The notes under the pieces are model-generated. The model did no database searches. It was not told the DNA's origin and was given only the letters and a program-made list of their open reading frames with translations. Positions 9,720 through 44,354 of a stretch of 64,000 nt of DNA are shown piece after piece. Position 1 is the first letter of the stretch, and every line of letters starts with the position of its first letter. The stretch comes from Halalkalibacter suaedae. Its GTDB lineage: Bacteria; Bacillota; Bacilli; Bacillales; Bacillaceae_D. Made by a program: the position numbers and the translations under genes. The DNA lies in contig NZ_JAGKSQ010000007.1 in NCBI RefSeq assembly GCF_017939705.1, forward strand, positions 167,424 to 231,423, written 5' to 3'.

Positions 9720-10697
9720 TTGCTGGACTTTTCGTAATAAATTAGTATTAAAAAAAGACAGTTAACTGAAAAACCAGCATATGTACGAGCTTTATCAAAG
9801 ATGAGGTACTTATTACCCTTCATTCAGCTTAGAATCGGTTGATTAGGAGAGGCTTATGAGCCGAAATTTGCTTATTATGAGCGGGAATCATCCTTTTATG
9901 AGCGGGTTCACCGCACTTATGAGCCAGATCAACACTTTTATGAGCGGATAGCGATGTGGCTGGCCTTTTCGTTAATAAATCCCTTATTAAAAAGAACATT
10001 AACCGAAAAACCAGCATATGTACGAGCTTTTTCAAAGATGAGGTTGCTTTTTACCCTACATTCAGCTGAGAATCGGTTAATCAGGTGATGCTTATGAGCC
10101 GGGATTTGCTTATTATGAGCGGAAATCATCCTATTATGAGCGAGATCAACACTTTTATGAGCGAATAGCGATGTGGCTGGACTTTTCGTTAATAAATCCC
10201 TTATTAAAAAGAACATTAACCGAAAAACCAGCATATGTGCGAGCTTTTTCAAAGATGAGGTTGCTTTTTACCCTTCATTCAGCTTAGAATCGGTTGATTA
10301 GGAGAGGCTTATGAGCCGAAATTTGCTTATTATGAGCGGGAGTTATCCTTTTATGAGCGAGATCACCGCACTTATGAGCCAGATCAACACTTTTATGAGC
10401 GAATAGCGATTTTGGCTGGCCTTTTCGTTAATAATCTCTTATTAAAAAGAACATTAACCGAAAAACCAGCATATGTGCGAGCTTTATCAAAGATAAGGTA
10501 CTATTTCCCCTACATTCAGCTGAGAATCGGTTGATCGGGTGAGGTTTATGAGCCGGAATTTGCTTATTATGAGCGGGAATCATCCTTTTATGAGCGGGTT
10601 CACCGCACTTATGAGCCAGATCAACACTTTTATGAGCGGATAGCGATTTTGGCTGGACTTTCAGTTAATCACTCTCTTATTAAAAAGGACATTTAAC
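9720..10697 (+). repeat. TTATGAGC 21-bp-phased array cluster 1 (four units)
   Basis: Four tandem units of ~215-240 bp. Each has an array of four or five octamers TTATGAGC at exact 21-bp steps (first unit: 9854, 9875, 9896, 9917, 9938), then an imperfect inverted repeat (GGCTGG..TTTTCGTTAAT against ATTAACCGAAAAaCCAGC), then GAGCTTTTTCAAAG and TTCAGCTnAGAATCGGTTG. An extra hairpin half-unit begins near 9722 and the last unit is cut near 10697. Related clusters lie at 22730-24090 (inverted) and 41885-43015. No protein-like frame is consistent across units. Confidence 0.85.
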
Positions 10698-10722
10698 CAT
10701 AGATCATAATGTGAATACGAAC

Positions 10723-10768
10723 AAAAGCAATGAACCAAGGTGGAGTTCAACCTAGGTTCATTGCTTTT
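10723..10768. terminator. Terminator at the 3' end of lipL
   Basis: AAAAGCAATGAACC pairs perfectly with GGTTCATTGCTTTT (14 bp). The lipL stop codon lies in the loop. T-runs on both sides allow termination in both directions. Confidence 0.85.
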
Positions 10769-11571
10769 ATATTTCTTTGATTTATTCGTTCATAATGGGT
10801 TTGGAGCATGTTGATTTCGGCGGGTGATAATGCTTGGATGTGTAGTTTGATGCCTTCATCATGTAGGGAGTGTAGAATTCGGCCAACGATGTCTGTTATC
10901 GTTAATGGTGTGTCTAGAAGGTCGGAGAGGGAGGCCATTGTCGCTGGGACAATTTGTGGATAACTGAACTTTGTCGGTGCGCCTTGGACTGATTTAGTAT
11001 AGAAATTCTGAATCAGCTGAGCACGATCCTCTCCGCTTCCATCAACACATAGGTAGATTTGGACAGCTACTCCGCCCCTAATTCTTCGCTGGGATATTCC
11101 CGCAAACTTCTTGCCACCGATACTAAGGTCAAAGCTACCAGGGCAGTAAGACCCGACAATTTCCTTTGCTTCAATGTGAACAGGGAAGTCCGCAAATAAT
11201 CGTTGGATAAAGGAATACATCAGCTCGTAGCCTGCATCAATCGTGAATCCTTTTTCTTCTTTAATAATTAATGAAAGATTTAAAATGCCTGGATCTAATA
11301 CAACGGCTAAACCACCGGAATTGCGGACGACGACACGATAGCCCTCTGCTTCGAGATATGCTTGTCCATCCTCGATATAGGGTAAGCGGCTATCTTGAAT
11401 ACCTAGAACAACTGTCTTTTCATGAACCCACGGACGAATCGTTGGCGGAGCATCCTGCTGACCGACAACTGTAGATAATGTGTCATCATAGGCAAAGGAT
11501 TGCAGGGCATCGAAATTCAATCCAAGTGTTGAATGATCTAGAAAACGCCATGACGTTGATATATTTTTCAT
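10747..11571 (-). CDS. lipL: Octanoyl-[GcvH]:protein N-octanoyltransferase LipL
   Basis: Moves octanoyl groups from GcvH to E2 subunits in the Bacillus lipoate pathway. The 274-residue BPL/LPL-fold protein has VVRNSGGLAVVLDPGILNLSLI (substrate pocket, about residues 80-101), the catalytic Cys in GSYCPGSFDLSI near residue 143, and GGKKFAGISQRR. The Cys at this position marks LipL-type amidotransfer. It lies convergently downstream of the pta locus, near where lipL (ywfL) lies in B. subtilis. Confidence 0.92.
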   Translation of the reverse strand: MKNISTSWRFLDHSTLGLNFDALQSFAYDDTLSTVVGQQDAPPTIRPWVHEKTVVLGIQDSRLPYIEDGQAYLEAEGYRVVVRNSGGLAVVLDPGILNLSLIIKEEKGFTIDAGYELMYSFIQRLFADFPVHIEAKEIVGSYCPGSFDLSIGGKKFAGISQRRIRGGVAVQIYLCVDGSGEDRAQLIQNFYTKSVQGAPTKFSYPQIVPATMASLSDLLDTPLTITDIVGRILHSLHDEGIKLHIQALSPAEINMLQTHYERINQRNIKAMNLG

Positions 11572-21900: not shown

Positions 21901-22695
21901 ATGCCCTATATAGAGACCGAGCATTATCACATCTATTACGAAGTTCACGGCGAGGGACAACCAATTGTCTTTATTCATGCCCCTGTCATGGGACATCTCA
22001 CGTTTAGATCACAGAAACCATTAGCTGAGCATTTTCAGCTTATTTTTATTGACTTACTTGATAGTGGACGAAGCACTAAACATACGGAGGGACAGGATCT
22101 CTCAATCCGAGCATTTGCCGACATCGTCTATACGGTTGTTTCCACATTAGATCTCAAGCCGGTGGTGTTATGTGGCTATTCAAACGGTGGATCGATTGCT
22201 CAAGAATTTGCTCTCGCTTATCCTAAACATACTGCAGGCTTAATTATGATTAGTGCTTTTCCTGAAGTCTCGTCCTTTTTACTAAGTAAGGAGTTTGATT
22301 TAGGGATTTGGGTCGCGAAGCATCAATGGTTGCCACTACTTTCAACCGTCCTCACGAAAGCCCATTTCAAATCAAAGGAAGAACAAAAAGAAATGGCCCG
22401 ATTTATCACAAATGCGGATGGTCAAGTGTTACATCAGATCTATGAACGAGGGAAGGCGTATGCAGCAACTGGAAGATTGAAGGAAATCAACGTACCAGTG
22501 CTTGCTGTATATGGAAAGCTGGATATGGTCACAAGCAGATATATGGTTCCGTTTGTAGAGGGAATTAGTGATGTTGAAGTCGCTGTCGTTAGCGGAGTAG
22601 CCCACCAAGTCCCAACAAGAAAACCAACCGAATGCAACCAAATTATCAAAAGCTGGATCAGTCGTAAACTAGGAAAAACACCTCTTTTAATTTAG
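21901..22695 (+). CDS. Alpha/beta hydrolase
   Basis: 264-residue alpha/beta-hydrolase fold protein. HG-type oxyanion strand VFIHAPVMGH near residue 25, nucleophile elbow GYSNGG near residue 98, an acid in YGKLDMV near 205 and the catalytic His in SGVAHQVP near 230. No signal peptide. AAAGGGG precedes ATG. Substrate cannot be told from sequence. The stop codon lies in the terminator hairpin. Confidence 0.85.
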   Translation: MPYIETEHYHIYYEVHGEGQPIVFIHAPVMGHLTFRSQKPLAEHFQLIFIDLLDSGRSTKHTEGQDLSIRAFADIVYTVVSTLDLKPVVLCGYSNGGSIAQEFALAYPKHTAGLIMISAFPEVSSFLLSKEFDLGIWVAKHQWLPLLSTVLTKAHFKSKEEQKEMARFITNADGQVLHQIYERGKAYAATGRLKEINVPVLAVYGKLDMVTSRYMVPFVEGISDVEVAVVSGVAHQVPTRKPTECNQIIKSWISRKLGKTPLLI

Positions 22696-22729: not shown

Positions 22730-24090
22730 GAAGTGGGGGCTCATAATAGTGTGGGTTTGGCTCATAAACTTGCTGATTCCGCTCATAACCATGCTAAGTC
22801 CGCTCATAAACCTCTCTATCCGGCTCATTAATAGCTCCGCCCCTTGAGAAACAGCTTGTTATGGGCGGTTAGAGAGGTCGCTTCTTCGAAAAAGCATGAG
22901 GAATTGGCTGGAATTTGATTAATATAGATGGTTTTAGAGTGCATATTGTATGAAAAGCCAACCGTAAAGTGAAAAAACTACGCATCAGGTGCTAGTTCGC
23001 GGCTAGGCTTATAATAGTGTCAATTTGGCTCATAACTCCGCAAATCCCGCTCATAACTATGCCAAGTCCGCTCATAAACCCCCAGATCCCGCTCATAAAT
23101 AGCCCCAACCCTTGAGGAACATCCTGTTTTGGCGGTTCGAGAGGTGACTTCTTCGAAAAAGCCTGAGAAATTGGCTGGAATTTTATTAATATAGATGGTT
23201 TTAAAGTTCATATTGAATAAAAAGCCAACCACTAAGTGAAAAATACTAATTCATAATCTAGGTTCAACTACGCATCAGCTGCTAGTTCAGGGCTTGAGGC
23301 TCATAATAATGCGGATTTGGCTCATAACTCCGCAAAACTCGCTCATAACTATGCCAATTTCGCTCATAAACCCCCAGATCCCGCTCATAACTAGCTCCCG
23401 CCCCTTGAGAAACAGCCTGTCTTAGCGGTTCGAGAGGTCACTTCTTCGAAAAAGCATGAGAAATTGGCTGGAATTTTATTAATAGATGGTTTTAGAGTGC
23501 ACATTGAATAAAAAGCCAACCATAAAGTGAAAAATATTAATACATAATCTAGGTTCAACTACGCATCAGCTGCTAATTCAGAGCTAGGCTCATAATAGTG
23601 TCAATTTGGCTCATAACTCCGCAAATCCCGCTCATAACTATCTCCCGCCCCTTGAGGAACAGCCTGTTTTGGCGGTTCGAGAGGTGACTTCTTCGAAAAA
23701 GACTGAGGAAATGGCTGGAATTTTATTAATATAGATGGTTTTAAAGTTCATATTGAATAAAAAGCCAACCACTAAGTGAAAAATGATCATTTTAATATAT
23801 TAATCTAGATTCAACTACGCATCAGATGCTAGTTCAGGGCTTGAGGCTCATAAAAATGCGGATTTGGCTCATAACTCCGCAAATCTCGCTCATAACTATG
23901 CCAATTTCGCTCATAAACCCACAAAACTCGCTCATAACTATCTCCGTCCCTTGAGAAACAGTCTGTTATGGCATTTCGAGAAGTCACTTCTTCGAAAAAG
24001 CATGAGGAATTGGCTGGAAGTTTATTAATATAGAAGATTTTAGAGTGCATATTGAATAAAAAGCCAACCAGAAATTGAAAAATCTAATTT
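22730..24090 (-). repeat. TTATGAGC 21-bp-phased array cluster 2 (five units, inverted)
   Basis: Same architecture as the cluster at 9720 but on the other strand, so the octamer reads GCTCATAA (first array: 22739, 22760, 22781, 22802, and GCTCATTA at 22823, all 21-bp steps). Five units of ~250-290 bp. Each array is followed by CTTCTTCGAAAAAGC and an inverted repeat TTGGCTGGaaTTTTATTAATAT against ATATTGAATAAAAagCCAACC. Units within this cluster are much more alike than they are to the other two clusters. Confidence 0.85.
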
Positions 24091-24357: not shown

Positions 24358-25554
24358 CTACAATAAACCAGAAACCAGCGAGGCAATCTTCTCCTTACCC
24401 TTATGAACAAACGGACGCTTCTTATAATTTTCAAACGTCAACCGCTCTGAAATCGCGAGATCATGGTCAAGCTCGCGTATAACCAATTGAACAAAATCAC
24501 TATCATAAATCAAACAATTGATCTCATGATTAATATGGAAGCTACGCTTATCGAAATTTGCTGTGCCGACATCACACATTTGGTTATCGATGACGAGGCA
24601 TTTTGCGTGAAAGAAGCCTCGGTAGTACTGATGAATCGTAATGCCAGCAGTTAAGAGATCGTTGAAATAAGGATATGCTGCTTCCTTTACAAGAGGATGA
24701 TCACCCTTCTTTGGCAAAATAAGCTTCACATCAACACCACGCTTCGCTGCTGCAATTAGCTCCTGATGAACTGGATCACCAGGAATATAATAGGGTGTTC
24801 CTAGCATAATGGTATGCTTGGCTTGTGCGATTAGATCAACGAATGTCTCCTCAAGATATACCCCATCTGTTGGTAGGATTCGTATTGGGCTATCACCTTT
24901 TGTCAGAAACGGATAATGTGAGGGCTGCTCAACATATCTCTGTTTCGCTGTTTGCCAGTCCTGCATGAATTGTTCCTGTAAATCTTGAACCCCGTCTCCA
25001 AAAAGACGAAGGTGGAAATCACGCCAGAAGCCGAATTTTGGATCGCGTCCTAAATACTCATCCCCGACATTATAGCCACCGATAAAACCTGTATTGCCGT
25101 CAATGACCGTTAGCTTGCGGTGATTTCGGCGGTTTGTTGTAAAGAATAAATACGGGAGTGAGGCAGGGTGAGAATAAGCAAAGTGGATGCCGTCCTTTCT
25201 CATCTTCCTAATAATTTTTTTGGGGATCCTGCAACCAGCCCGATCAACAAGGAGTCGAACGGTGACGCCTTCCTTCGCCTTTGATTCTAGAGCGGAAATC
25301 ATTTTCTTCCCAATATGGTCATATCTAAAAATGTAGAAAAGCATATGAATATGGTCTGTGGCAACCTGGATATCCTGGAAGAGTTGCTTAAAAAATTCAT
25401 CACCAGTCGGTAACAGAGTGATGTCACTATATCGTGTTTCTTGAACATGTCGTGAAGCCTCGCTTCGCTGCTTTCGCATTCCTAATACAAAATCGAGACG
25501 TAGCCAAATGACTATCGCTATAAATATAATGCCTGCAATCATCCAACCATTCAT
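24358..25554 (-). CDS. ywjE: Cardiolipin synthase / phospholipase D family protein (YwjE type)
   Basis: 398-residue PLD-superfamily membrane enzyme. One N-terminal membrane helix (MIAGIIFIAIVIWL) is followed by two HKD motifs, NHRKLTVIDGNTGFIGG near residue 188 and FHAKCLVIDNQMCDVGTANFD near residue 325. Predicted to join phosphatidylglycerols into cardiolipin. The start at 25554 has AAGGTAGGT upstream and gives the 398-aa length I recall for YwjE; a longer in-frame extension to 25644 has no ribosome-binding site. Divergent from the TetR gene. Confidence 0.88.
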   Translation of the reverse strand: MNGWMIAGIIFIAIVIWLRLDFVLGMRKQRSEASRHVQETRYSDITLLPTGDEFFKQLFQDIQVATDHIHMLFYIFRYDHIGKKMISALESKAKEGVTVRLLVDRAGCRIPKKIIRKMRKDGIHFAYSHPASLPYLFFTTNRRNHRKLTVIDGNTGFIGGYNVGDEYLGRDPKFGFWRDFHLRLFGDGVQDLQEQFMQDWQTAKQRYVEQPSHYPFLTKGDSPIRILPTDGVYLEETFVDLIAQAKHTIMLGTPYYIPGDPVHQELIAAAKRGVDVKLILPKKGDHPLVKEAAYPYFNDLLTAGITIHQYYRGFFHAKCLVIDNQMCDVGTANFDKRSFHINHEINCLIYDSDFVQLVIRELDHDLAISERLTFENYKKRPFVHKGKEKIASLVSGLL

Positions 25555-25720
25555 AGCATGACCTACCTTCTGAAAAAATGTCCTCTTTTTATCATGACCG
25601 AATTCGGCATAGAACATGAAAAAAATAAAAAAATGCTTTCTCAAAAGTAAAGGTATAGCTGAAATGTGTAAATTTTAGTATGCTTATAGCAACATAATCA
25701 GCGGAAGTAGGTTGATAGAG

Positions 25721-34949: not shown

Positions 34950-35014
34950 TTCGTCATGTGTGATTGAGATAACTCTGTTTCGAAGAGATTCAGGGCAAAA
35001 GGAGATGAAAAGTA

Positions 35015-41359: not shown

Positions 41360-41806
41360 ATGAGTATCGTTGTTAGAAAAGCAGAACAGAAGGATCTACT
41401 TCCCATTCAAAGATTGGTAGCGAAAGCCGGCTTGCGTGATGAAGGGATTGAACAATATATAAATGAGTTTCTAGTCGTTGAAGATGATTCAGAGAATTTA
41501 ATTGGGACAGTTGGAATCGAACAGTATGATGGCGATGGCCTACTACGTTCACTTGTCCTTGATTCACCAATTTGGGATGCAAAGCTCAGCCTTGAATTTC
41601 TGCAGCTTACGTTAAAATATGCGGAGGAAAAGGATATCGAGACTGTCTATCTATGTGCGAAAGGAACAAATGCCTTGTTCCACCAGCTTGGCTTCCGAGA
41701 AGTCGATCTAGATGACGTCCCATCAGCTATTCAAAGCTCGCCTCATTTTAAGAAAAATGCGAAGCAAGATGTAAAAGTATGGGCTTGTGGATTAGGTGAA
41801 GAGTAG
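41360..41806 (+). CDS. ywlB: GNAT acetyltransferase YwlB
   Basis: 148-residue GNAT-fold protein: IVVRKAEQKDLLPIQRLVAKAGL start, ENLIGTVGIEQYDGDGLLRSLVLD central strands, and VYLCAKGTNALFHQLGFREV near the C terminus. The acetyl-CoA loop is weakly formed. Substrate unknown. GAAAGGGTGGAG precedes ATG. Position between spoIIR and ywlC matches B. subtilis. Confidence 0.82.
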   Translation: MSIVVRKAEQKDLLPIQRLVAKAGLRDEGIEQYINEFLVVEDDSENLIGTVGIEQYDGDGLLRSLVLDSPIWDAKLSLEFLQLTLKYAEEKDIETVYLCAKGTNALFHQLGFREVDLDDVPSAIQSSPHFKKNAKQDVKVWACGLGEE

Positions 41807-41884: not shown

Positions 41885-43015
41885 GTGGGTATTGGGGAGT
41901 TATGATCGTACTTGCAGTGTTTATGAGCGGAATCGATATACTTATGAGCCAAATCCCCACTATTATGAGCGGGCACTATTTGGCTGGCATTTGATTCAAT
42001 AAAAGCACTTCAAAAAGACCAATTAAATTCAAAAAGCCAGCCGATGTATGAGCTTTTTCGAAGGAGAATGGCTTTTTAGCTTAAAATGAGCTAAGAATCT
42101 GCTAGTTGAAGAGATTTATGAGCCGAGTTGAGTAAGTTATGATCGTACTTGCTGTGTTTATGAGCGGAATCGATATACTTATGAGCCGGATCCGCACAAT
42201 TATGAGCGGGCACCATTTGGCTGGCATTTGCTTCAATAAAAGCAATTCAAAAAGACCAATTTAATTCAAAAGCCAGCCAATGTGTGAGCTTTTTCGAAGG
42301 AGAATGGCTTTTTAGTTTAAAATGAGCTGAGAATCTGCTAGTTGAAGAGATTTATGAGCCGAGTTGAGTAAGTTATGATCGTACTTGCTGTGTTTATGAG
42401 CGGAATCGATATACTTATGAGCCGGATCCGCACAATTATGAGCGGGCACCATTTGGCTGGCATTTGATTCAATATAAGAACTTCAAAAAGACCAATTTAA
42501 TTCAAAAAGCCAGCCGATGTATGAGCTTTTTCGAAGGAGAATGGTTTTTTAGCTTAAAATGAGCTGACAATCTGTTAGTTGAAGAGATTTATGAGCCGAG
42601 TTGAGTAAGTTATGATCGTACTTGCAGTGTTTATGAGCGGAATCGATATACTTATGAGCCGGATCCGCACAATTATGAGCGGGCACCATTTGGCTGGCAT
42701 TTAATTCAATAAAAGCACTTCCAAAAGATCAATTTAATTGAAAAAGTCAGCCGATGTATGAGCTTTCTCAAAGTGAAGTGGTTTTTTAGCTTAAAATGAG
42801 CTGACAATCTGCTGGTTGAAGAGATTTATGAGCCGAGTTGAGTAAGTTATGATCGTACTTGCAGTGTTTATGAGCGGAATCGATATACTTATGAGCTGGA
42901 TCCGCACACTTATGAGCGGGCACCATTTGGCTGGCATATAATTCAATAAAAGCACTTCAAAAAGACCAATTTAATTCAAAAAGCCAGCCAGTGTGCAAGA
43001 CTTCTCAAAGAAGAG
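41885..43015 (+). repeat. TTATGAGC 21-bp-phased array cluster 3 (five units)
   Basis: Five units of ~220-240 bp. The first array has TTATGATC at 41900 and TTATGAGC at 41921, 41942 and 41963, exact 21-bp steps. Each array is followed by TTGGCTGGCATTTnATTCAAT paired imperfectly with AATTnAATTCAAAAAGCCAGCC, then GTATGAGCTTTTTCGAAGG. Same element type as at 9720 and 22730 but with its own unit sequence. Ends at the DnaA-box cluster. Confidence 0.85.
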
Positions 43016-43019
43016 TGAC

Positions 43020-43407
43020 TTATCCACTTAACAAGCTACTCAAACAATAAAACGCTTCCAATTAAATAATTCCACACACATAGGTTTTGCTTGTGTATAA
43101 CTGGATAAATGGGATGAGTTATCTACAGGTTGTCCACGGGTGTGGACAACTTCGCTTGGGATATGTGGTTAGAATTATGTCGAATTGATTATTTGGATTA
43201 AATAGAACAGGTTCGTTTTCGGCATATTTGTTAGGGTTTGTGTCGATTTTCGGGTTTGAGATTGACAACTTTAGACAAGGCTTGCAAAATGGAGAAGTTA
43301 GGAGCGATGAAACATGAGTTATAAACAAACAAAAATTTGGACTGTGGATAACTCTTCTTTACTGGAGGATAAAGCTCCGGAAATTGAAGAGGCAGCCTTG
43401 TGGATAA
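43020..43407. promoter_or_regulatory. DnaA-box cluster at ywlC
   Basis: Perfect TTATnCACA boxes on the minus strand at 43092-43100 (TGTGTATAA), 43343-43351 and 43399-43407 (both TGTGGATAA), plus one-mismatch boxes at 43020-43028 (TTATCCACT), 43119-43127 (TTATCTACA) and 43141-43149 (TGTGGACAA). The last two perfect boxes lie inside the ywlC coding region. As I recall, the ywlC region is one of the chromosomal DnaA-binding sites outside oriC in B. subtilis, so this looks like a conserved cluster. Confidence 0.72.
43262..43290 (+). promoter_or_regulatory. Candidate ywlC promoter
   Basis: TTGACA, 17-bp spacer, CAAAAT (4 of 6 to TATAAT); start codon 24 bp downstream. Lies inside the DnaA-box cluster. 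Confidence 0.5.
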
Positions 43408-44354
43408 AAAATGGAGAGGTTGTTGCCTTTCCGACAGAGACTGTTTATGGGCTCGGCGCTAATGCATTGGACGAAAAAGCGATTCAAAGCATCTTCACAG
43501 CAAAAGGGCGGCCGAGTGATAACCCGCTTATTGTACATATTGCAAAGGAAAGTCAGCTCGATGATTTAGTTGAAGAGATTCCTGCTACAGCCCAGTCGCT
43601 TATGGAAGTGTTTTGGCCTGGTCCGTTATCGATTATTTTTAAACGAAAGGAAGGGATTGCACCGAGTGTGACAGCGGGATTATCAACAGTGGCTATTCGA
43701 ATGCCTGATCATCCGGTTGCACTTCGTTTATTAGAGGAGGCGGGTGTGCCTGTTGCCGCACCGAGTGCTAATCTTTCAGGGAAGCCGAGTCCGACTACTG
43801 CAGCTCATGTCTTTCATGATCTGAACCGGAAGATTGCAGGAATTGTTGACGGGGGACCGACTGGGGTGGGTCTTGAGTCAACGGTCATTGACTGCAGTGA
43901 AGGGACTCCAATTCTGTATCGCCCAGGTGGCATTACAAAGGAACAGATTGAGGAAATTATCGGACCGATTGACGTTGATCCAGCTCTTGCGTCGGCAGGA
44001 GAAGCACCGAAATCACCTGGAATGAAATACACTCACTATTCTCCAGCAGGAATTTTATATCTCGTAGACAACCGTGAGAATATTTCAAACTATGTTCATG
44101 AGGCGAAAAAGGCAGGTAGTAGAGTTGGTGTGTTAACAACAGAGGAAAACGCGGATGCGTATGATGCCGATGTCGTTATTGCCTGCGGGAAACGCAATGA
44201 CCTGGCAACCGTAGCGATGTCTCTATATAAAAGCTTAAGAAGCTTTGATGAGGAAAAGGTTGAGGTTATTTTTGCTGAGACGTTTGCCAAAGAAGGCCTT
44301 GGAATTGCCATTATGAACCGATTGGAAAAAGCAGCTGAATCTAAACGGTTATAA
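43314..44354 (+). CDS. ywlC: L-threonylcarbamoyladenylate synthase (Sua5/YrdC family)
   Basis: Makes threonylcarbamoyl-AMP for the t6A37 tRNA modification. 346 residues in two domains: YrdC domain with KNGEVVAFPTETVYGLGANA near residue 32, KGRPSDNPLIVHI and SANLSGKPSPTTAAHV; then a linker SPGMKYTHYSP and a C-terminal Sua5 domain (about 215-346). TTAGGAGCGATG precedes ATG. Two perfect DnaA boxes fall within the first 100 bp. Confidence 0.95.
   Translation: MSYKQTKIWTVDNSSLLEDKAPEIEEAALWIKNGEVVAFPTETVYGLGANALDEKAIQSIFTAKGRPSDNPLIVHIAKESQLDDLVEEIPATAQSLMEVFWPGPLSIIFKRKEGIAPSVTAGLSTVAIRMPDHPVALRLLEEAGVPVAAPSANLSGKPSPTTAAHVFHDLNRKIAGIVDGGPTGVGLESTVIDCSEGTPILYRPGGITKEQIEEIIGPIDVDPALASAGEAPKSPGMKYTHYSPAGILYLVDNRENISNYVHEAKKAGSRVGVLTTEENADAYDADVVIACGKRNDLATVAMSLYKSLRSFDEEKVEVIFAETFAKEGLGIAIMNRLEKAAESKRL

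Follow-up and report, generated by a model that had tools for sequence, protein, structure and literature searches.

Intergenic octamer arrays at a two-helical-turn step in Halalkalibacter suaedae and other Bacillales

The genome of Halalkalibacter suaedae carries, between its genes, numerous short arrays of the octamer TTATGAGC, in which the word recurs at a step of exactly 21 bp, i.e., two helical turns. Word and step alike stay constant as the surrounding DNA drifts, and the same word is found in similar intergenic arrays, often at a 20-bp step, in other genera of the Bacillales. Our leading interpretation, to which we assign a probability of roughly 0.4, is that the arrays represent intergenic DNA that is read in its double-stranded form by a putative protein bound to one face of the helix, and that their most likely role is that of a boundary between transcription units.

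The window, i.e., the whole stretch of 64,000 nucleotides that was analysed, contains 63 copies of TTATGAGC, compared to an expected 2.54 (none of 100 shuffles reaches 63), and all except four of these copies sit in three intergenic clusters. Cluster 1 as a whole (9722..10698, forward strand) is a tandem repeat of 4.2 copies of a ~237-bp unit, as determined by TRF, which independently recovered both the 21-bp and the 237-bp periods. The five octamers reported in the earlier note at 9854, 9875, 9896, 9917 and 9938 are located at precisely these positions and make up array 1 (9854..9958, forward strand, five copies of TTATGAGC at exactly 21 bp). Arrays 2 (10092..10175), 3 (10309..10413) and 4 (10546..10650), on the same strand, contain four, five and five units, respectively, likewise at 21 bp. 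The alternation of four arrays with a GGCTGG..CCAGC inverted repeat was also correctly described: between 9854 and 10650 the arrays contain 5, 4, 5 and 5 units, and a repeat precedes each of them. These repeats, recognized in the sequence on the forward strand, occupy 9722..9778 (GCTGG...CCAGC, before array 1), 9958..10015 (before array 2, where a centroid fold also forms it), 10175..10232 (before array 3) and 10414..10470 (before array 4), the latter three in the form GGCTGG...CCAGC. The layout of the cluster is therefore that of a G(G)CTGG...CCAGC inverted repeat, followed by a linker and an array, the whole recurring at ~237 bp; after the last array, only the left part of the inverted repeat is present. 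Just past the cluster, a terminator-like inverted repeat with 22-nt arms (10723..10768, no strand assigned) lies at the 3' end of ORF 10747-11571(-), which was identified by eye as a lipoate-ligase-like gene.

Cluster 2 (22739..23937, reverse strand) is composed of five arrays of 5, 3, 5, 5 and 5 units and is positioned between the convergent ORFs 21901-22695(+) and 24358-25644(-). Cluster 3 (41900..42917, forward strand) also contains five arrays, of 4, 5, 5, 5 and 5 units (near copies are included in the counts for both clusters), and is positioned between the tandem ORFs 41360-41806(+) and 43314-44354(+). In one unit of each of the five arrays of cluster 3, TTATGATC replaces TTATGAGC, a variant that was copied together with the unit.

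The initial impression of a single site was thus too narrow: in addition to the two further clusters of the window, the genome (4.32 Mb in 30 contigs) contains 398 pairs of TTATGAGC at exactly 21 bp, compared to 400 pairs with any gap of 5-30 bases, among the matches listed. The mapped stretches of the genome, together with the window, cover 396 of the 398 pairs, and the arrays in them, defined as three or more units with up to 2 mismatches per unit, number at least 129, in 39 clusters. Most of these arrays (111 of 129) have exactly five units. The clusters are concentrated at the end of contig C11, the final 169 kb of which carries 25 of the 39; a search for a terminus marker with the Bacillus subtilis dif pattern, allowing 3 mismatches at most, gave no match by which this dense region could be placed on the replication map. 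The scan of spacings that had been proposed, in this genome and in its relatives, thus revealed a strong preference for one step, rather than an octamer that is common at no preferred spacing.

The 21-mer can be described as TTATGAGC-cGgATt-N7, wherein the information per base amounts to 1.6-2.0 bits within the octamer, 0.8-1.2 bits in the six bases after it and 0.0-0.5 bits in the last seven (SRRATY, used below, is a by-eye shortening of the printed consensus cGgATt). The 13-bp spacers, which had been called unrelated, are mostly so in their last seven bases, and the six bases that follow the octamer are semi-conserved. In the mapped stretches of this genome, the distances of up to 75 bp between neighbouring exact octamers are 21 (397 cases), 42 (27) and 63 bp (2); off the step, there are two distances of 20 and two of 41 bp, with none of 22 or 43. 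Of 288 words flanked by two exact octamers at a distance of 42 bp, and not themselves selected, 261 are exact. Tandem copies differ by 46 substitutions in 2480 octamer positions, by 525 in 4030 spacer positions and by 774 in 8461 linker positions (the linkers also show 79 gap events), so that the octamer changes at a rate 7× below that of the spacer and 5× below that of the linker; the difference between octamer and spacer has a p value of 3e-65, assuming independent sites. This comparison comprised 310 unit pairs, drawn only from array pairs with a spacer identity above 0.6 and excluding the final unit of each array, together with 56 linker pairs of less than 40% divergence. It is on these substitution counts and on the distribution of distances that the constraint on both word and step is based, although the exactness of the step is partly inherited, since tandem duplication alone keeps a period.

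Among the matches listed, none of 12 congeners contains a 21-bp pair of TTATGAGC, and one of 28 other members of the family has a pair of the octamer, probably by chance. A scan for three octamers at 21 bp, using one genome per species, returned 31 stretches, 19 of which are from the Bacillales in the broad sense; the carriers in this order include Sporosarcina, Ureibacillus, Lysinibacillus, Sutcliffiella, Rossellomorea, Oceanobacillus and Bacillus methanolicus. Pairs with any gap of 5-30 were found in 67 of the 397 genomes of an order-wide search (our own genome included). By hand count of the matches listed, with our own genome excluded, the step is 20 bp in at least 16 genomes, 21 bp in at least 11 and 19 bp in at least 4, and any other single step is represented in at most 6. 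In a phylum sample of 299 genomes, those outside the order have two pairs each at most. Viral origin was considered and rejected, as 42 viral stretches hold one 21-bp pair apiece, which we take for chance. The reversed control word, CGAGTATT, shows multi-copy pairs in genomes G188, G303, G219, G308 and G413 (among the matches listed) and possibly represents another word array.

The spacing was assessed further in 53 loci from 21 genome groups, picked by 21-bp octamer triples or by pairs at any gap of 5-30, mostly several pairs together. With a single exception (18 bp), the 280 distances of up to 75 bp in these loci fall on a ladder of 19-22, 39-43 and 59-64 bp, and none of the 280 corresponds to one or three turns. 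The 20-bp step, which was not a selection criterion, occurs 147 times with 61 distinct spacers (69 of the occurrences are from one genome, G295), and the 21-bp step 77 times with 64 distinct spacers. Steps of 20 bp are present in 16 of the 21 other groups, and mixtures of 19 and 21 bp occur in Sutcliffiella. In Bacillus methanolicus, a methylotroph used in the laboratory, most arrays are of the 20-bp kind. Spacers outside this genome are mostly 12-13 bp long, and the number of units in other species ranges from 2 to 47 (on a loose ladder, with up to 3 mismatches); several arrays in genus g52 are near-perfect tandem repeats.

The inverted repeats of cluster 1 have counterparts throughout the genome. 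Inverted GYTGG/CCARC arms precede 79 of the 129 arrays (71 of the 90 cluster-internal arrays), compared to 2 of 129 in letter-shuffled controls. Three of five unit folds have z scores of -2.0 to -2.3, and the remaining unit and array folds are at -0.5 to -0.9. RNAalifold found no shared pair in alignment A1, the right arm of which is visibly misaligned, and model R1 of the hairpin unit is therefore one of sequence only. When applied to 45 Bacillales loci, R1 gave four matches at E up to 1, and because these are few and the best of them (E 0.002) is away from the array, the hairpin unit appears to be confined to this genome. Some arrays of genus g52 follow a hairpin of another kind. In genomes G295 (L236, L237, L238 and L242) and G315 (L171), the array is preceded by a hairpin of the type GCTCGTCCAGCG...CGCTGGACGAGC. 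The 3' arm of this hairpin stops in phase with the 20-bp repeats, which gives the impression that the array grew from the hairpin.

The genomic setting of the arrays was assessed from our own ORF calls rather than from annotation, and the direction of replication from GC skew. In our own genome, 37 of 558 array octamers lie inside an ORF of at least 110 aa; the corresponding figures are 0 of 123 for g52 and 36 of 200 for the other genomes. All but two of these ORF-located octamers sit in ORFs with more than one array octamer; there are nine such ORFs of 111-444 aa (five here, four elsewhere and none in g52), and they were dropped as spurious for the counts of gene context, strand and terminators, after which 2 of 558 octamers (own genome) and 0 of 323 (others) remain in ORFs. 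An adjacent gene 3' end is present in 75 of the 85 array gaps, and in 63 of these 75 a terminator-like site was found, at a median distance to the nearest array edge of 74, 66 and 51 bp for the three sets (outliers lie more than 1 kb away). The same finder detected such sites at 154 of 319 array-free gene 3' ends, a figure that is not like for like, since it refers to single ends and the 63 of 75 to gaps with up to two 3' ends each; it also detected them in 16 of the 319 ends after shuffling of the letters and at 18 of 170 gene 5' flanks. Among the array gaps, divergent ones are underrepresented overall (10 of 85 vs 78 of 340, p 0.024), with no clear depletion in this genome (7 of 36 vs 35 of 144). 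The placement near terminators may merely reflect the least constrained DNA.

Arrays located between tandem genes run antisense to them in 18 of 20 gaps of this genome and 16 of 20 gaps of other genera, but in the sense direction in all nine such gaps of g52. In non-tandem gaps, according to GC skew, the arrays of G000 together with mixed other genomes are anti-leading in 20 of 25 cases (p 0.004; Bacillus methanolicus, tallied apart, in 1 of 3), versus 3 of 8 in g52, and consequently no single rule of polarity applies. The place of the arrays is much alike between lineages, whereas their direction is lineage-specific, which a simple one-way roadblock would not predict.

One gap was compared directly with its orthologues. 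The gap between pta and lipL (gene names assigned by eye), which in the window is occupied by a TTATGAGC cluster, contains a TTATGAGC array in none of the 12 congeners and is shorter than 120 bp in 7 of them. In congener G023, the gap (L203:2670-2884, L180:1177-1392) harbors a different array, TTCGGACAG...TGTCCGAA, with a 52-bp step, and congener G017 (L191:8001-8479) has a 52-bp array with words similar to those of G023.

Arrays of other words were sought in 60 stretches that had not been picked for arrays (561 non-coding segments, 188 kb; L202 and L203, which had been chosen for an array, were excluded). Eleven arrays of any 8-bp word were found, compared to two matches in total for three shuffles per segment. 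Their periods are 21 (7 arrays), 20 (1), 52 (2) and 12 bp (1), and the chance that 8 of 11 fall at 20 or 21 bp would be 5e-10 if periods of 12-65 were equally likely. The words at 21 bp are TATTCGCG, CTATCCAG, TACTGTCC, TATCTGAC, TGTTAGGT, GAGCGAAA (in L313, with part of TTATGAGC in common) and ATCCAAAA; the word at 20 bp, GCAACTTT (L318), is maybe a decayed relative of TTATGAGC. By eye, several of the other-word arrays directly follow a terminator, and in these the words are conserved and the spacers drift. Word arrays at 20 or 21 bp occur in 7 of 24 stretches from genomes with TTATGAGC arrays, versus 1 of 36 from the others (p 0.005). In coding DNA, periods are mixed, and 4 of 19 word arrays have a period of 21 (heptads); some 21-bp arrays near genes could therefore be old coding sequence. 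Controls outside the order yielded no arrays in 40 kb of non-coding DNA, an amount too small to show absence. In genome G287, a run of TTATCGAGCA-like words at 20-bp steps (L165:5217-5784) has a TTATGAGC array as its neighbour at ~120 bp; a third word, ATTTAAGCGAAA, recurs there at a 21-bp step (L165:3038-3149).

Since differing words share the same step, it is the two-turn step, rather than the word, that would be the common feature in this small sample, and TTATGAGC seems to belong to a wider class of word arrays that are phased at this step. We tentatively raise the broader possibility that the Bacillales possess a class of intergenic two-turn phased arrays, with a word of 7-14 bp for each lineage or locus and always a step of 20-21 bp, which would be read by a putative family of one-face binding proteins of evolving specificity and would form boundaries behind terminators, TTATGAGC being one widespread word. 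Different words in different places would call for several proteins, or for one of changing specificity.

How a TTATGAGC array may work can be pictured as follows. Each octamer, together with the semi-conserved SRRATY, would bind one protein unit, and neighbouring units would touch, as the two-turn step faces them to the same side. A filled array, usually of five sites (105 bp) in this genome, would form a stiff or bridged nucleoprotein patch, and behind a terminator such a patch would stop read-through or an opposing RNA polymerase, or would hold local supercoiling. The 237-bp unit of hairpin plus array multiplies by tandem duplication, as the tandem copies show, and has reached ~39 sites in the genome. 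Judged from the sequence, the arrays have the constrained word at helical-turn spacing that would be expected of a phased protein-binding array. In iteron and operator arrays, direct repeats recur at intervals of about two helical turns, which should put proteins on one face, and such arrays are usually confined to one locus beside their own rep or regulator gene. The arrays described here differ in that they form 39 clusters in one genome, with no common neighbour gene identified. Hence, of the earlier reading as an iteron or phased operator array, the operator part agrees with the constraint on octamer and step, with the 20- and 21-bp loci and with the lack of one-turn or three-turn distances in them, whereas the iteron part is at odds with the many clusters. 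The same reading preferred such an array to a mobile element. This is in keeping with the lack of an association with a transposase; on the other hand, some way of spreading must exist, since the arrays are absent from the 12 congeners and highly amplified here.

The main rival, which we regard as unlikely, takes up this last point and considers the arrays a selfish repeat, whose octamer and step are needed only for its own spread by a nickase, a recombinase or replication-slippage machinery, with no benefit to the host. The contrast between 0 of 12 congeners with a pair and 39 clusters here, the concentration of 25 clusters at one contig end, the enlargement of clusters by tandem copying of the 237-bp unit and the state of the pta-lipL gap in the congeners (short in most, free of the array in all, with a different repeat array in G023) would all be expected of such an element. 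Yet several words have the same period, and no common enzyme gene was noticed beside the arrays in an unsystematic look at their neighbours. The one candidate enzyme, the RAYT-like Y1 transposase, is encoded in 30 of 32 genomes, with arrays or without (8 of 32 are above the curated cut-off), and of 50 RAYT loci listed, 20 outside this genome were analysed, 19 of them with an intact ORF, none of which has a TTATGAGC array within its 8-kb stretch. In genus g52, exactly one RAYT-like gene is present in each of the seven genomes searched. REP/BIME elements with RAYT are intergenic palindromes repeated in clusters, and the coupling of hairpins to arrays, together with the position of the genome's single RAYT-like gene (C11:820925-821737) between two clusters, at ~0.9 and 1.7 kb from its ORF, might suggest that the hairpin is a REP mobilised by this RAYT. 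The immediate flanks of the ORF, however, are a different repeat, of separate GGGACGGTTCTC/GAGAACCGTCCC type, RAYT ORFs elsewhere have other flanking repeats (by eye), and the presence of RAYT does not track the arrays; mobilisation by RAYT is rejected on account of these flanks and this distribution, and we consider a REP/RAYT-like system very improbable. The Bacillales RAYT-like Y1 transposase genes (L113:922-1737, L259-L278) often have flanking repeats of their own, of the GGGGYCAGTCCCC or GAGAACCGTCCC types (by eye).

An element that acts in RNA, where array and hairpin would serve as a sponge, a decoy or a 3'-UTR binding array, could account for the excess of inverted arms over shuffled controls, for the three more stable unit folds and for the fact that some arrays end at a bidirectional terminator, like a short transcript (by eye). 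The weaker z scores of the other folds and the lack of a shared pair in the out-of-register alignment A1 speak against it, as do the orientation of the arrays relative to tandem genes, which is mostly antisense in this genome and other genera and sense in g52, and the exact two-turn step, which has no obvious use in single-stranded RNA. Moreover, Rfam at the gathering threshold matched nothing at the arrays of the window, its only match there being the L31 leader (34973-35004); in this respect, the arrays do not belong to a described repeat, and we judge a role at the RNA level improbable. A neutral minisatellite, in which 20-21-bp repeats arise by slippage and drift with no recognition, is to our mind slightly more improbable: unit numbers as variable as 2 to 47 and the near-perfect tandem repeats of g52 are in its favor, but drift would hit the whole unit, whereas the octamer changes far less than the spacer, and the peak of periods at 20-21 holds across different words. 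Small translated repeat genes, for which 21 bp would represent seven codons, we find scarcely credible. The frame ATG AGC ... does stay open for short distances, and there are the nine ORFs with two or more array octamers; nevertheless, all eight bases of the word are conserved, third positions included, and a 20-bp step cannot be read as codons, so that the 20-bp steps of the relatives and the 19/21 mixtures of Sutcliffiella, which break any frame, rule out translation as the reason for the period and translated repeats as a class. The analysis revealed no transposase, RNA family or reading frame to account for the arrays.

The arrays may be compared with known repeats. CRISPR repeats measure at least ~24 bp and alternate with unique spacers about as long as themselves, and the 8-bp repeat and 13-bp spacers found here are not those of a CRISPR. 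No TTATGAGC family, or two-turn repeat family in the Bacillales, was found in the literature searched, from which most subscription journals were outside the scope. To this extent the earlier statement that no described element has such a layout can be upheld; in its general layout, however, it is anticipated by the STAR elements of staphylococci, which, in the portions of the article consulted, are presented as a short conserved intergenic direct repeat with locus-specific spacers, whose sets occupy genomic sites that differ by species and can grow or shrink in place (Purves et al. 2012, PMC3532100). According to the same portions, the STAR motif is 14 bp long and GC-rich, T(G/A/T)TGTTG(G/T)GGCCC(C/A), with spacers of 40-44 bp (gapR locus) or at least 40 bp (PMC3532100). 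STAR is the nearest published kind to the TTATGAGC arrays, which share with it the intergenic location, the species-specific sites and the locus-specific spacers, and differ from it in their 8-bp core, 12-13-bp spacers and two-turn step and, in this genome, in the coupled hairpin and pentads. The arrays are not STAR elements themselves: the window contains one match to the STAR consensus with up to 2 mismatches, compared to 2.3 by chance, and the spacers here are 13 bp rather than 40-44 bp. A looser parallel is provided by the TAACTGA direct repeats of Beggiatoaceae and others, described in the sections consulted as many intergenic sets of scattered phylogeny and as possible binding sites (MacGregor 2015, PMC4679880). 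There too a short word, a heptamer, forms intergenic direct repeats, either plain or split by one or two related 7-mers, most of them just upstream of a start codon; unlike the TTATGAGC arrays, these sets have no 12-13-bp spacer mentioned in those sections (PMC4679880).

Relative to the known interspersed intergenic direct repeats, it is the helical step that is new. A fixed word with drifting spacers and a two-turn step, present in 39 clusters here and at 20 bp in other genera, points to a DNA-reading system of the Bacillales for which our searches found no name. If other words at the same step share the class, the step would provide a search key for undescribed chromosome elements and for their proteins. 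Should the class prove real, the role of interspersed intergenic repeats such as STAR could become testable through their spacing.
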